Positions 27,993 through 34,868 of a stretch of DNA of 64,000 nucleotides are shown here, piece after piece; position 1 is the stretch's first letter; each line of letters starts with the position of its first letter. Made by a program: the position numbers and the translations under genes. The stretch is from Actinotalea subterranea (GTDB lineage: Bacteria > Actinomycetota > Actinomycetes > Actinomycetales > Cellulomonadaceae): contig NZ_VTTP01000008.1 of the NCBI RefSeq assembly GCF_008364845.1, forward strand, positions 1 through 64,000. The letters are read 5' to 3'. The notes beneath the pieces are model-generated. The model worked only from the letters and a program-made list of their open reading frames with translations, ran no database searches and was not told the DNA's origin.

Positions 27993-29516
<1,524 letters not shown>

Positions 29517-29567: not shown

Positions 29568-30851
29568 TCACGCGTCCGGGTTGGCCCGCTCGGCCGCCTC
29601 GACCGTCGACCGCCGCACCCTGAGCGCGGGGTACGCGGCGGCGAGCGCCGTGACCACGGCGGCACCGACGAGGACCGGGGCGACGTCGACGCGCTCGGCG
29701 GCCGCGCCCGCCAGGAGGGCGCCGACGGGCATCAGGCCGTAGCCGATGGTCCGCCCGGCGCCGGACGTGCGGCCCAGGAGGGCACGCGGCACGACGCGCT
29801 GGCGCAGGGACATCGAGATCGTGTTGCCCACGGTGTTCGTGGCCCCGACGAGGAGCATGACGACGGCGAGCGCGGGCACCGTGGGGACGAGGACGGGCAC
29901 GAGCAGCAGCGGGGCGACGGCGAGCCAGCACGCGTACATGACGCGGAGCTCCGCGACGTGCCGGAGCAGGCGCTCGGTCAGGAGCGACCCGGCCACGGCG
30001 CCGACGGCGAGGACCGTGGTCAGCAGCGGGTAGTGCGCGGCCTCCATCTGCATGCGGGACCCCGGCCCGACGACCCAGAGCAGGAACACGGCCATGTACG
30101 CGGTCGAGGCCATGTTCATGAGCCCGCCAGCGAGGACGAACGGTCGCAGCACGGGGTGGTGGACCACGTAGCGGATGCCCTCGAGGACGTCCGCGACCGG
30201 CCGCGTGGGCGTCGTGGGCTGCGCGCGGTGCGGGCCGGGGACGCCGCGCAGCAGCACCACGGCCGCGGCGACGGCCAGTGCCGCGGGCACTCCCAGCACC
30301 CACCCGGCGCCGAGCGTCAGGAGCACGCCCGCGACGGGGCTCCCGACGAACGTGTTGGTCACCTGCTGGGTCGCGAGGAGGCGTCCGTTCGCGGCCTGGA
30401 GCCGGCTGCGGGGGACGAGGTCGGGCACGAGCGCCGTCTCGGCGAGGTCGGCGAACACCTCCGTGACGCCGTAGGCCAGGACCAGGCCGACCAGGACGGG
30501 CATGGTGAGGCGGTCGGCCGCGGCGAGCGACGCGCCCGCGAGGAGGAGCGCCGCACGGGCCGCCAGGGCGACGACCTGCGCGGTGCGGCGGTCGGTGCGG
30601 TCGACCACGACGCCGCCGACGAGGCCGAGCACCAGCCAGGGCAGCCAGGTGGCGGCCGCGACGAGCGCGAGCTGGCCGGGGGAGCGGGTGATCGTCAGGG
30701 CGACGAGGGGTGCGCCCATCTGCACGACGCCGTCGCCCAGGTTGGCGAGGCCGGTCGAGGTGAGCAGGGCGGTGAACGGCCGTCCGAGCGGGGCCGGGGG
30801 CGCGTCGACGTCCGCCGCGCGGGTCGTCGGGTGCGCTGCGCTCGTGGTCAT
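29568..30851 (-). CDS. MFS transporter, probable drug exporter
   Basis: A 427-residue major facilitator protein with twelve predicted helices and a cytoplasmic N-terminus. The loop VVVDRTDRRTAQVVALAARA between helices 2 and 3 is the MFS motif A equivalent (here GGVVVDRTDRR). Overall it resembles the MFS_3/enterobactin-exporter-like group, often linked to macrolide or siderophore export; the substrate is unknown. The ATG at 30851 follows GGGGGAA. It is divergent from an ArsR-like regulator across an 87-bp gap that contains four 14-bp repeats, so repression by that regulator is likely. Confidence 0.9.
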   Translation of the reverse strand: MTTSAAHPTTRAADVDAPPAPLGRPFTALLTSTGLANLGDGVVQMGAPLVALTITRSPGQLALVAAATWLPWLVLGLVGGVVVDRTDRRTAQVVALAARAALLLAGASLAAADRLTMPVLVGLVLAYGVTEVFADLAETALVPDLVPRSRLQAANGRLLATQQVTNTFVGSPVAGVLLTLGAGWVLGVPAALAVAAAVVLLRGVPGPHRAQPTTPTRPVADVLEGIRYVVHHPVLRPFVLAGGLMNMASTAYMAVFLLWVVGPGSRMQMEAAHYPLLTTVLAVGAVAGSLLTERLLRHVAELRVMYACWLAVAPLLLVPVLVPTVPALAVVMLLVGATNTVGNTISMSLRQRVVPRALLGRTSGAGRTIGYGLMPVGALLAGAAAERVDVAPVLVGAAVVTALAAAYPALRVRRSTVEAAERANPDA

Positions 30852-30877
30852 GGTTCCCCCGGTTAGGCTCGGCTCGT

Positions 30878-30933
30878 TGCAGAGGAGTCGTTGCAAAGGA
30901 TTCTCTGCAGAAGTATCGATGCAAAGGTATCTC
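30878..30933. promoter_or_regulatory. Four tandem 14-bp operator-like repeats
   Basis: The repeats are TGCAGAGGAGTCGT (30878), TGCAAAGGATTCTC (30892), TGCAGAAGTATCGA (30906) and TGCAAAGGTATCTC (30920), followed by a fifth TGCA at 30934. Each repeat plus the next TGCA forms an imperfect dyad, best as TGCAAAG-N4-CTCTGCA. The array is far less GC-rich than its surroundings. It fills the gap between the MFS gene and the ArsR-like gene and ends five bases before the latter's ATG. It is the obvious candidate operator for that regulator. Confidence 0.8.
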
Positions 30934-30938
30934 TGCAT

Positions 30939-31619
30939 ATGACCGAGAACAAGACCCCCGTCGACCCCGCCGCGCCCGCAGGTGTCCCCGCACGCGGGCC
31001 GGGGCCCGACGACGGGCTCCCCTCGGGCGCACCGGCGGCCGTCGGCGACGCGCCCCCCATCGGGCCGGAGGCGCTCAAGGCGTTCGCCCACCCCCTGCGG
31101 ATGGCCATGTACCGGTACCTCACGGCGCACGGGTCCGGGACGGCCAGCGCGCTCGCCCGGCACACCGGGGAGAGCACCGGCCAGACGAGCTACCACCTGC
31201 GCCAGCTCGAGCGGCACGGCCTGATCGAGGACGACCCCGAGCGGGCCGGCTCGGGCCGTGAGCGGTGGTGGCGCCCCACGGGCTTCAGCCTCGACCCCCG
31301 CACGTTCGACGACCCGGCGGTCAGGCTCGCGGCGGATGTCGCGCTGCGCGCCCTCGTCGACGAGCGCTCCGAGCTGCTGCTCGGCTGGTTCGACCGCGCC
31401 CAGCGCAGCTCCGTCGACCCGTGGGTCGACGCGTCGATGCACAACGTCGCGACCGGGGACCTGACCGTGGACGAGCTGGCGAACCTGCGTGAGCGGCTCG
31501 GGGAGGTCCTGGACGACGCGTTCGCGGCGGCCAAGGCCCGCAAGGCCGCAGACGGCCCGGCCGGCAGGCGTCGCGTCCGCGCGTACGTGGACGCGTTCCC
31601 GCTCGACGTCACGGACTGA
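30939..31619 (+). CDS. ArsR-like winged-helix regulator
   Basis: A 226-residue regulator. After a disordered Pro/Gly-rich 45 residues comes a winged helix (about 48-115): LKAFAHPLRMAMYRYL, then HTGESTGQTSYHLRQLERHGL as the recognition helix, then a wing with GSGRERWWRPT. The C-terminal half is helical and may bind ligand or dimerise. No metal-binding Cys cluster is visible, so a small-molecule signal is more likely than metal. ATG 30939 lies right after the 14-bp repeat array; a TTG at 30891 would place the start inside it and is less likely. Targets: probably itself and the divergent MFS gene. Confidence 0.87.
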   Translation: MTENKTPVDPAAPAGVPARGPGPDDGLPSGAPAAVGDAPPIGPEALKAFAHPLRMAMYRYLTAHGSGTASALARHTGESTGQTSYHLRQLERHGLIEDDPERAGSGRERWWRPTGFSLDPRTFDDPAVRLAADVALRALVDERSELLLGWFDRAQRSSVDPWVDASMHNVATGDLTVDELANLRERLGEVLDDAFAAAKARKAADGPAGRRRVRAYVDAFPLDVTD

Positions 31620-31683: not shown

Positions 31684-33051
31684 GTGAGGATCCTCGTCAT
31701 CGGTTCGGGCGCGCGCGAGCACGCCATCGTCGTGGCGCTCTCCCGGGGGGCCGCCCCGGGCGACCCCCCAGGTGCCGAGACCCCGCACGAGCTGCACGCC
31801 GCACCCGGCAACCCGGGCATCGGCACCCGCGCGACGCTCCACGACGTGGACCCCCTCGACCCCTCGGCCGTCGCCGCGCTGGCCGGTGAGATCGGAGCGG
31901 ACCTCGTCGTCGTCGGGCCCGAGGCCCCGCTCGTCGCGGGGGTCGCGGACGCTGTGCGTGACGCGGGCATCGCGTGCTTCGGCCCGAGCGCCGAGGCCGC
32001 CGCGCTCGAGGGTTCCAAGGCGTTCGCGAAGGAGGTCATGGCGGCCGCGGGCGTGCCCACCGCGATGGCCCACGTGTGCACGACGGTCGACGAGGTGGCC
32101 GACGCGCTCGACGCGTTCGGCGCCCCCTACGTCGTCAAGGACGACGGCCTGGCCGCCGGCAAGGGCGTCGTCGTGACGTCGGACCGCGACGAGGCCCTGA
32201 CCCATGCGCGCACGTGCCTGGAGCGCCGGTCGGGCGCCGTCGTCGTCGAGGAGTACCTCGACGGGCCGGAGGTGTCGCTGTTCTGCCTCAGCGACGGCGC
32301 GACCGTCGTCCCCCTCGCCCCGGCGCAGGACTTCAAGCGCGCGCTCGACGACGACGAGGGGCCGAACACGGGCGGCATGGGCGCCTACTCGCCGCTGCCC
32401 TGGGCGCCTGCGGACCTCGTGGACGAGGTCGTCGAGCGCGTGGCGCAGCCCACGGTCGACGAGATGCACCGCCGCGGTACCCCCTTCGCGGGGGTCCTGT
32501 ACTGCGGGCTCGCGCTGACGTCGCGCGGCGTGCGGGTCATCGAGTTCAACGCGCGCTTCGGGGACCCCGAGACGCAGGTGGTGCTCCCGCGCCTCGCGAC
32601 GCCGCTCGCCGACGTGCTCCTCGCGGCCGCGACCGGACGCCTCGAGCACGTCGCGCGGCTGCGCTGGCACGACTCCGCGGCGGTGACGGTCGTCGTCGCC
32701 GCGCACGGGTACCCCGGCCCGGTACGGGCCGGTGACGAGGTCGAGGGCATCGACGACGCCGAGGCCGTGCCGGGCGTGCACGTGCTCCAGGCCGGCACGG
32801 CGGCCGCGGACGACGGCGGGATCGTGTCCGCAGGCGGGCGCGTGCTGTCCGTCGTGGGCGTCGGGCCCGACGTCGCGGCGGCGCGCGAGACCGCGTACGC
32901 GGGCGTCGACCGGATCGGGCTGCGCGGGTCGCACCACCGCGGCGACATCGCGGCGCGCATGCCCGAGCCGGTGGCCGGGACGCCTGGGACACCCGGGACA
33001 CCTGGGGCGCCCAGGTCGTCGGCGGGGGCCGACGTCGAGGCGGGGATCTGA
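31684..33051 (+). CDS. purD: Phosphoribosylamine-glycine ligase
   Basis: A 455-residue ATP-grasp enzyme making GAR from phosphoribosylamine and glycine, purine step 2. The N-terminal MRILVIGSGAREHAI, VVGPEAPLVAGVAD, the ATP-grasp core VVKDDGLAAGKGVVVT, and NTGGMGAYSPLPW and EFNARFGDPETQVVLPRL are all present. It is longer than the usual 420-430 residues because of a low-complexity tail (VAGTPGTPGTPGAPRSSAG) built from a short DNA repeat. The YkuD-like lipoprotein gene follows by eight bases. Confidence 0.96.
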   Translation: MRILVIGSGAREHAIVVALSRGAAPGDPPGAETPHELHAAPGNPGIGTRATLHDVDPLDPSAVAALAGEIGADLVVVGPEAPLVAGVADAVRDAGIACFGPSAEAAALEGSKAFAKEVMAAAGVPTAMAHVCTTVDEVADALDAFGAPYVVKDDGLAAGKGVVVTSDRDEALTHARTCLERRSGAVVVEEYLDGPEVSLFCLSDGATVVPLAPAQDFKRALDDDEGPNTGGMGAYSPLPWAPADLVDEVVERVAQPTVDEMHRRGTPFAGVLYCGLALTSRGVRVIEFNARFGDPETQVVLPRLATPLADVLLAAATGRLEHVARLRWHDSAAVTVVVAAHGYPGPVRAGDEVEGIDDAEAVPGVHVLQAGTAAADDGGIVSAGGRVLSVVGVGPDVAAARETAYAGVDRIGLRGSHHRGDIAARMPEPVAGTPGTPGTPGAPRSSAGADVEAGI

Positions 33052-33059
33052 GGTACGCG

Positions 33060-33914
33060 GTGCGCCGCGCCGGACGGCGGTCTGAGGTCGGGGCGCCGGG
33101 CGCGTCGACCCTGCCGCGCGGTCAGGTGACCCGGCGGGTGCTCCGCGCGGCCCGTGCCTGCGCGGGCGGTGCGCTCGTCGCCGTGCTGCTCGTGGCGTGC
33201 TCGGCCGGTGGCGACCCCGTGCCCACGCCGACGCCGTCGGCCACCCCCACGCAGACGCCCGAGCCCACGCCGGAGCCCGAGCCCTGGCTCTCGGTCCTCG
33301 CGACCGCGACCGGACCGACGGTCGACCTCTACGCGGAGCCCGACCCCGCGGTCGCCGTCCCGGTGCCCGTGCGCACGCTGGCCGCGGCCGAGGTGGTCTC
33401 GCGGCCCGACGCCGTCCCCCTGACGCTCCTGGTGATCGAGCAGCGGGACGGCTGGCTGCACGTGGCGCTCCCCGTCGCCCCGCACGGCTCGACGGGGTGG
33501 GTCCGGGCCGCGGACGTGACGCTGTCCTCGACGGACCTGCGCCTCGAGGTGCGCCTCACGGAGCACAGGCTCCTGCTGCACCGGCGTGACGAGGTCGTCC
33601 TCGACGTCGCGGTGGGCGTCAACCCGCAGGCCGCGCCGGCGCCGGGCACCGGGTACTTCGTGACAGAGCTGCTCCAGCCGCCGACGCCGGACGGCGTCTA
33701 CGGCGCCTACGCGTACGGGCTCTCGGGCGCGCCGCCCGTGCTGAGCGCGTTCGCGGCAGGTGCCGGCCTGGTCGCCCTGCACGGCACGAGCCAGCCCGAG
33801 ACGGTGGGTACGGACACCCCGACGGGCTCCATCCGGATGCTCGACACGGACGTCACACGCCTCGTCCAGGAGTTCGGGCTGCCGCTCGGCACGCCCGTCG
33901 ACGTCGTCGCCTGA
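33060..33914 (+). CDS. YkuD-like (L,D-transpeptidase) lipoprotein with Ser for catalytic Cys
   Basis: A 284-residue lipoprotein. A basic signal peptide ends in the lipobox LLVAC (Cys47), followed by a Thr/Pro/Glu linker, an SH3-like stretch (about 85-160) and a YkuD-type domain (about 163-284). The family motif is HX14-17[S/T]HGCxR. Here His241 in ALHGTSQ is kept, but the cysteine segment reads PTGSIRM, with Ser257 where the nucleophile should be. It may be inactive, use Ser, or only bind peptidoglycan. The start is GTG 33060; GTG 33126 gives a tidier signal peptide and is a good alternative. It lies between purD and purC. Confidence 0.8.
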   Translation: MRRAGRRSEVGAPGASTLPRGQVTRRVLRAARACAGGALVAVLLVACSAGGDPVPTPTPSATPTQTPEPTPEPEPWLSVLATATGPTVDLYAEPDPAVAVPVPVRTLAAAEVVSRPDAVPLTLLVIEQRDGWLHVALPVAPHGSTGWVRAADVTLSSTDLRLEVRLTEHRLLLHRRDEVVLDVAVGVNPQAAPAPGTGYFVTELLQPPTPDGVYGAYAYGLSGAPPVLSAFAAGAGLVALHGTSQPETVGTDTPTGSIRMLDTDVTRLVQEFGLPLGTPVDVVA

Positions 33915-33956
33915 ACGGTGCCGCCCCTGGCCCCCCGACCCTGGGAGACTGCCGCC

Positions 33957-34868
33957 ATGACCCTCGAGCTCCCGGGCTGGACCCACACCTACTCAGGCAA
34001 GGTCCGCGACCTGTACGTGCCGGCGGCGCCGCACCCCGCGGGTGACGTGGTGCTCGTCGTGGCGAGCGACCGGATCAGCGCGTACGACCACGTGCTGGCC
34101 ACGCCGATCCCCGGCAAGGGCACCGTCCTGACCCAGCTGAGCCTGTGGTGGTTCGACCAGTTCGCCGACCTCGTGCCCAACCACGTGGTGACCGCGGACG
34201 GCGGCCCGCACGGGGTGCCCGACGCCGTCGCAGGCCGGGCGATGGTGTGCCGCCGGCTCGAGATGTTCCCGGTCGAGTGCGTCGTGCGCGGCTACCTGAC
34301 CGGGTCGGGTCTCGTCGAGTACCGCGCGGGCGGTGCGGTGTGCGGCGTCGAGCTGCCCGTGGGTCTCGAGGACGGGTCCCGGCTGCCGCACCCGATCTTC
34401 ACGCCCGCGACGAAGGCCGAGCTCGGCGAGCACGACGAGAACGTGACGTTCGAGGCCGTCGTCGGGCAGCTCGGCGAGCCGGACGCCACGGCCCTGCGGG
34501 ACCTCACGCTCGCGGTCTACGCGCGGGCCGAGGAGGTCGCGCGGGAGCGGGGGATCGTCCTGGCCGACACCAAGCTCGAGTTCGGCCGCGCTCCGGACGG
34601 ACCCGACGCGGGTGCGATCGTGCTGGGGGACGAGGTCCTCACACCTGACTCGTCCCGCTTCTGGCCGGCCGACGCGTGGCAGCCCGGCCGGGCGCAGCCG
34701 AGCTTCGACAAGCAGTACGTCCGGGACTGGCTCACGGGGGAGTCCGGGTGGGACCGCGCGTCGGACACCACGCCGCCGCCGCTGCCCGACGACGTGGTGC
34801 GGCGCACGCAGGAGCGGTACCTGGACGCGTTCCGTCGCCTCACGGGCCGGGACCTCGACCTCGGCTGA
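33957..34868 (+). CDS. purC: Phosphoribosylaminoimidazole-succinocarboxamide synthase
   Basis: A 303-residue SAICAR synthetase that couples CAIR to aspartate with ATP, purine step 7. Visible are YSGKVRDLY at the N-terminus, ASDRISAYDHVLATPIPGKG, VECVVRGYLTGSG, and the late DTKLEFGR and LTPDSSRFWP motifs. Its SKQYVRDW-like FDKQYVRDWL is also typical. Length matches actinobacterial PurC. The ATG at 33957 follows GAGACT at six bases, a weak leaderless-type box; the upstream in-frame sequence is not conserved. Confidence 0.96.
   Translation: MTLELPGWTHTYSGKVRDLYVPAAPHPAGDVVLVVASDRISAYDHVLATPIPGKGTVLTQLSLWWFDQFADLVPNHVVTADGGPHGVPDAVAGRAMVCRRLEMFPVECVVRGYLTGSGLVEYRAGGAVCGVELPVGLEDGSRLPHPIFTPATKAELGEHDENVTFEAVVGQLGEPDATALRDLTLAVYARAEEVARERGIVLADTKLEFGRAPDGPDAGAIVLGDEVLTPDSSRFWPADAWQPGRAQPSFDKQYVRDWLTGESGWDRASDTTPPPLPDDVVRRTQERYLDAFRRLTGRDLDLG

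Follow-up and report, generated by a model that had tools for sequence, protein, structure and literature searches.

Between two divergent genes of Actinotalea subterranea lies a short array of 14-bp repeats, and the question it raises is which protein reads it, and how. We analyzed the array both in the window, i.e., the whole 64,000-nucleotide stretch of DNA under study, and in the relatives of the regulator encoded beside it. We compared how well the array is conserved, its pitch, the phase of its dyads, its register with the promoter and how helix types pair with link letters, and on this basis the array is very probably the autoregulatory operator of the adjacent HTH_20 regulator, also controlling the MFS exporter. 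Binding itself, repression, release by a ligand and joint occupancy of the sites are steps that we infer from these comparisons.

The array and its two genes

The genes and the parts of the array are as follows.

29568 to 30851, minus strand: divergent MFS transporter, 427 aa, MFS_3 / MFS_1 (translation, Pfam)
30878 to 30937, no strand assigned: predicted ladder operator with a TGCA link every 14 bp, five in all, which make up four overlapping TGCARAG-N4-CTYTGCA dyads (sequence, repeats, shuffles, single genomic occurrence)
30878: unit 1, TGCAGAGGAGTCGT
30892: unit 2, TGCAAAGGATTCTC
30906: unit 3, TGCAGAAGTATCGA
30920: unit 4, TGCAAAGGTATCTC
30934 to 30937: fifth TGCA, which completes the last dyad
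30892 to 30909, no strand assigned: second strong dyad, TGCAAAGGATTCTCTGCA
30920 to 30937, no strand assigned: regulator-proximal dyad, TGCAAAGGTATCTCTGCA, the position with the top mean symmetry in relatives
30939 to 31619, plus strand: regulator, 226 aa, HTH_20 winged helix and long helical C-terminal part (translation, Pfam, structure model)

The gap between the MFS gene and the regulator spans 30852 to 30938, the 87 bp that the sequence-only reading had given it, and is AT-richer than its flanks, as that reading had also said: its GC content is 53%, compared to 77-84% in nearby 100-bp windows outside the gap. The four head-to-tail 14-bp TGCA units described there are real. They start at 30878 as proposed, but the feature does not end at 30933; it runs four bases further, through the fifth TGCA, and a single base then separates this last link from the regulator's ATG at 30939. 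Each dyad is 18 bp long and overlaps its neighbor by a common TGCA. The overlapping, imperfect dyads of the earlier description were thus borne out, the best being those of units 2 and 4, while dyads 1 and 3 are imperfect. When the gap was shuffled 20,000 times with dinucleotides preserved, no shuffle gave more than two successive TGCA at 14-bp steps (two were reached 20 times), compared to the run of five observed.

In the whole 4.03-Mb genome, TGCA-N10-TGCA-N10-TGCA occurs at a single place, the array, and the reversed-pattern control gave 0. With at most one mismatch allowed, all six genomic places matching the dyad pattern fell inside the array; the reversed control gave five matches, their places not given. 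Since the array stands alone in the genome, the regulator looks local.

The regulator scored 47 bits against HTH_20 (PF12840; gathering cut-off 27) over residues 49-97, and so the earlier label "ArsR-like" holds at the level of the domain. It does not extend to a metal-sensing ArsR regulator, a candidate that was ruled out: with NF033788 (ArsR/SmtB metalloregulators) the protein reached 40.5 bits, under the NCBIfam cut-off of 55, and none of its 226 residues is cysteine. Cysteine was likewise absent from the matched part in 48 of 52 cluster representatives. Because of the missing cysteine and the missed cut-off, a metal is an unlikely ligand.

An AlphaFold model of the regulator (mean pLDDT 85.6) placed the winged helix between about residues 43 and 113, together with two long helices at 126-156 and 177-205, which may form a dimer interface or a ligand pocket. 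By E-value, the top Foldseek match among those listed was Kfla_6221 of Kribbella flavida (PDB 4g6q, 2.4e-05), aligned to model residues 34-222 with Z 10.9 and an rmsd of 4.7 A over 171 residues. This match also spans the C-terminal part, although its identity to the regulator is just 19-20%. Short ArsR proteins gave Z values equal to or above that of Kfla_6221, over the winged helix alone, and short ArsR-type proteins were the only, weak, matches in the PDB by sequence. A search of open PubMed Central text found no paper naming Kfla_6221.

The divergent gene product exceeded the gathering cut-offs of both MFS_3 (90.6 bits against 27) and MFS_1 (82.8 against 33.4), and all eight NCBIfam matches to a named drug-efflux subfamily (e.g., Tet(V), Tap, TIGR00900) fell under their cut-offs. 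As read by eye from translations, purine genes flank the pair at 28065-29516, 31684-33051 and 33918-34868 of the window (adenylosuccinate synthetase, phosphoribosylamine-glycine ligase, SAICAR synthetase). Between two of these, at 33060-33914, lies a frame that looks lipoprotein-like, its C-terminal part possibly resembling an L,D-transpeptidase, also by eye.

Conservation, pitch and phase among relatives

The comparison used 175 regulator homologue loci, window included, each oriented by its own tblastn match; copies of the window (L031-L034) and one copy of another locus (L121, of L097) were left out. Some organisms occur twice (e.g., L055/L071 and L062/L080), and this, like relatedness in general, was handled only by clustering at 60% identity. 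An array was present in 131 of the 175 loci and, in its strict TGCA form, in 124, leaving 51 without the strict form; three dyads was the commonest size (83/124). Named genomes contributed 32 loci, mostly from Cellulomonas, with others from Ornithinimicrobium, Nesterenkonia, Brevibacterium, Tessaracoccus, Actinotalea, Citricoccus, Propionicimonas and less well named bins. The strict-register array was found in 29 of these 32, and the named genera that retain the array number at least eight.

An MFS gene was divergent in 53 loci, co-directional downstream in 23, upstream on the same strand in four and unmatched in 95, of which 58 had short flanks on both sides. Repeats missing where both genes are kept, the case that the sequence-only reading had named as speaking against it, did not occur: all 53 divergent-MFS loci (window included; 22 clusters at 60% identity) kept the array. 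In 52 the register was strict, and the remaining one, L048, has a 13-bp step. The strict array was also found with 17 of the 23 co-directional downstream MFS genes, with none of the four upstream same-strand genes and in 55 of the 95 unmatched loci. Since the array is also present in Brevibacterium senegalense (L050, L056) and Citricoccus (L060), where nothing beside the regulator matched MFS, exporter control is not universal. In Brevibacterium jeotgali (L062) there was neither array nor MFS match. The divergent neighbor in L050 and L062 reads by eye as a CMD/peroxidase-like protein.

The pitch was close to constant. Among adjacent spacings of 30 bp or less between links with a recognizable half-site, 262 of 273 were 14 bp; the others were 12 (1), 13 (4), 20 (1), 25 (1) and 28 bp (4). 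The 13-bp and 12-bp steps mean that the pitch is not absolute. The 13-bp steps in L048 (Cellulomonas phragmiteti) and L053 (C. iranensis) correspond to a 3-bp spacer instead of a 4-bp one, and these arrays are natural variants that bear on how strict the pitch is.

We also scored the period without prescribing any letters, combining chained dyads and self-match and taking the expectation from shuffles. Period 14 was best in 121 of 175 loci (14.8 expected) and in 50 of 72 representatives at 60% identity (4.8 expected). Among the controls, both of them small sets, it was best in 4 of 24 TetR genes, somewhat above the expected 1.75, and in 3 of 27 HTH_20 genes at large (2.2 expected); 6 of 30 TetR and 3 of 30 HTH_20 loci had been dropped for short flanks. 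This comparison with small controls suggests that the ladder is a trait of this regulator clade, not one of HTH_20 regulators in general.

A further comparison was anchored on the most regulator-proximal good dyad alone in 57 cluster representatives, with no letters required upstream. An exact TGCA stood at -14 in 48, at -28 in 28 and at -42 in two of the 57, and besides -14 and -28 no offset from -60 to -1 reached three. Within the unit at -14, the link and RAG kept 0.9-1.75 bits per column, while three of the four spacer columns kept 0.15-0.45; the unit at -28 followed the same trend, more weakly. That the -14 unit retains link and RAG but not the spacer argues that it is under selection of its own.

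Since TGCA is self-complementary, a dimer could in principle sit on a link or on the gap between links. The end links distinguish the two. Across 80 arrays with at least three exact links, the two end links carried an outward arm in 7 and 7 cases and an inward arm in 59 and 66; in 52 cluster representatives the outer arms numbered 6 and 2 and the inner arms 40 and 43. The link-centered dyad CTYTGCARAG was ruled out as the dimer site because end links lack the outward arm, and the binding unit is most likely the gap-centered dyad, internal links serving two neighbors.

The array is not fully symmetric, given that at internal links the left arm (44/129) is weaker than the right (105/129). An alternation of TGCAGA and TGCAAA units, noticed in the first reading, holds in the window but was not found as a general feature of relatives, where AAG predominates in the inner units (94/129 links). 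Positions were ranked by dyad scores and column information in 52 cluster representatives; arrays had been picked by exact TGCA and a near-complete arm, so the link conservation in these columns is partly built in. Proximal dyads were on average more symmetric than distal ones. In 97 arrays with at least three dyads, whose end links may be imperfect, the mean left-arm score from the regulator outwards was 2.78, 2.37 and 2.20 in the 49 divergent-MFS arrays and 2.85, 1.94 and 1.65 in the 48 others. The gradient can be read in two ways, as nucleation at the proximal dyad or as a result of the promoter letters that lie in this same dyad.

The promoter letters in question are the following.

30905 to 30910, plus strand: putative -35 box CTGCAG, overlapping the common link 30906-30909, 17 bp before 30928; register found in 97/124 arrays
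30928 to 30933, plus strand: putative -10 box TATCTC inside the last dyad; TAnnnY at offset -6 of the last link in 66/124 arrays

A TAnnnT/C box in register was present in the same 97 of 124 strict arrays, lying 6 bp before the last link in 66 and 8 bp after it in 32, with one array having both. Of these 98 cases, 80 had TTGCAA or CTGCAA as the hexamer 17 bp upstream and the rest were close to it, i.e., the hexamer is a link. Among cluster representatives the -10-like box was found in 42 of 52, against a background of 24 in 4108 other offsets. Thus, a common tetramer is likely to serve as the -35 of the regulator promoter. We base this assignment on conservation, since no promoter was detected in the gap by a general sigma-70 scan. 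The putative -10 lies just before the ATG at 30939, and so the regulator message probably has little or no leader. By eye, the minus strand close to the start of the MFS gene shows an AnnnT-like pattern, a candidate MFS promoter in array register.

Recognition helix and link letters

The letters of the links followed the recognition helix of the regulator. A strict TGCA array accompanied the [T/M]SYH helix in 123 of 149 loci and the other helix types in 1 of 26 (Fisher p about 4e-15, relatedness ignored). By eye, LVSYH proteins went mostly with GCGC, VTSWH with TCGA or close to it, and [N/S]CS[F/Y]H with TCGA, GCGA or others. Period 14 was nonetheless best in 13 of 14, 4 of 8 and 7 of 11 loci of these three groups (0.9, 0.95 and 0.65 expected); the 33 loci came from a targeted search and are partly independent, several of them (e.g., L144, L160, L166) being already in the first set. 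Helix types that have their own link letters at the same step tie the protein to the array, and they indicate that the step outlives the letters. Together with the 53 divergent-MFS loci, this match lends good support to the connection between regulator and array that the sequence-only reading had drawn by inference.

Where a link stood between two perfect RAG-N4-CTY cores, it was TGCA in 31 cases, TCGA in three, GCGC in two and another tetramer in six; the same search found no such pair of cores in coding sequence. Self-complementary links made up 36 of these 42, but just 5 of the 11 that were not TGCA. In L245, an LVSYH-class locus with a minus-strand match (turned for reading), the outer links are GCGA and TCGT and the inner ones GCGC, a pattern that would be expected if an inner link had to suit two opposed half-sites at once.

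Proposed mechanism, alternatives and known systems

In the mechanism that we propose, one dimer would occupy each 18-bp dyad (RAG-N4-CTY with a TGCA link on each side), with one recognition helix per half-site. The link common to neighboring dyads would fix the pitch at 14 bp. Because the proximal dyad lies over the putative -10 and a link doubles as the putative -35, binding would repress the regulator. Repression probably extends to the divergent MFS gene, given that the array takes up the upstream region of this gene. A ligand would release repression. Binding would probably start at the proximal dyad and extend to the weaker distal dyads through contacts between neighboring dimers. Fourteen bp is 1.33 helical turns, as had been calculated before, and each dimer would be rotated by about 120 degrees against the next. 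The polymerization of a protein around DNA that the sequence-only reading suggested goes further than this evidence. A clash may arise where two helices meet on a single 4-bp link.

A more specific version of this mechanism, which we hold only tentatively and would not yet favor over doubt, is that an actinobacterial clade of winged-helix repressors assembles on DNA in a short three-fold spiral whose pitch outlives changes of helix and link. There would be one dimer per 14 bp, turned by 120 degrees, with neighbors touching over the common 4-bp link. This touching geometry would constrain the pitch, while helix and link letters would change together (TGCA, GCGC, TCGA). The link would tend to self-complementarity, since its four bases have to serve two opposed half-sites.

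Overlapping sites might instead be mutually exclusive, with dimers on alternate dyads 28 bp apart and extra dyads just raising the chance of occupancy, a somewhat unlikely arrangement. It is consistent with the window, whose strong dyads are the second and fourth and whose locus scores best at a 28-bp lag, and with the weaker arm CTA of the second dyad in 13 of 49 divergent-MFS arrays; over the 97 arrays of the gradient, however, mean left-arm scores become lower the further a dyad lies from the regulator, with no alternation. We consider it improbable that the repeats are mainly promoter parts, a link being the -35, a unit carrying the -10, the other units being slippage copies and protein sitting on the last dyad alone. 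Such a role would account for the -35/-10 register and for the top mean symmetry of the proximal dyad, but not for the selection that the -14 unit shows on link and RAG over spacer, nor for the same pitch in the other link classes. Chance, or a functionless simple tandem duplication, has next to no probability: slippage can yield short direct repeats, but no shuffle reached three links in register and conservation across genera refutes it.

MetJ at its met boxes and TrpR at its tandem operators are known cases of multiple dimers bound side by side where sites overlap or adjoin; their folds and steps differ from those found here. The Fur overlapping-dimer model, mentioned in the part of PMC10415144 covered, has the same side-by-side arrangement, again with a different fold and step. 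Among the literature compared, the nearest known mechanism is that of CodY. As described in the covered part of the same source, its winged-helix dimers bind two overlapping 15-nt sites with a 6-nt overlap and a 9-bp step, showing strong cooperativity through cross-dimer contacts, and cutting the overlap from 6 to 5 or 4 nt lowers affinity to that of a single site. Overlapping dyads with a common half-site at a fixed step are found in the array as well (14 bp, TGCA). The array differs in having four 18-bp dyads with a 4-bp overlap and a 14-bp step in place of CodY's two sites, and CodY is a global regulator with GAF domains, whereas the regulator here looks local, with one array in the genome.

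Rv2034 of Mycobacterium tuberculosis, as far as the covered text of PMC3338718 describes it, is an ArsR-like dimer and autorepressor. Over its own promoter it binds an inverted repeat whose halves are 4 bp apart, and a single half suffices for weaker binding. It shares with the array an ArsR-like protein and a 4-bp-spacer dyad over the regulator's own promoter; its operator is a single dyad, CCGTAAGT-N4-ACTTACGG, and no ladder is described in the text covered. Compared by DNA letters alone, and with these partly covered sources, the array is laid out like CodY sites and built like a chain of Rv2034 dyads. Among the matches listed, the titles and abstract openings of open PubMed Central papers held no description of a 14-bp ladder operator.

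The regulator clade is large, and the open literature searched yielded no operator for it; what was an isolated repeat becomes a readable rule. Once such a regulator is found, the operator grammar (link-RAG-N4-CTY-link at a 14-bp step) and its promoter register are predictable from DNA. Since helix and link letters change as pairs, a recognition code could be worked out on natural data, and the common links make contacts between neighboring dimers testable by small insertions. For the exporter, a small, local and self-limiting switch is predicted.
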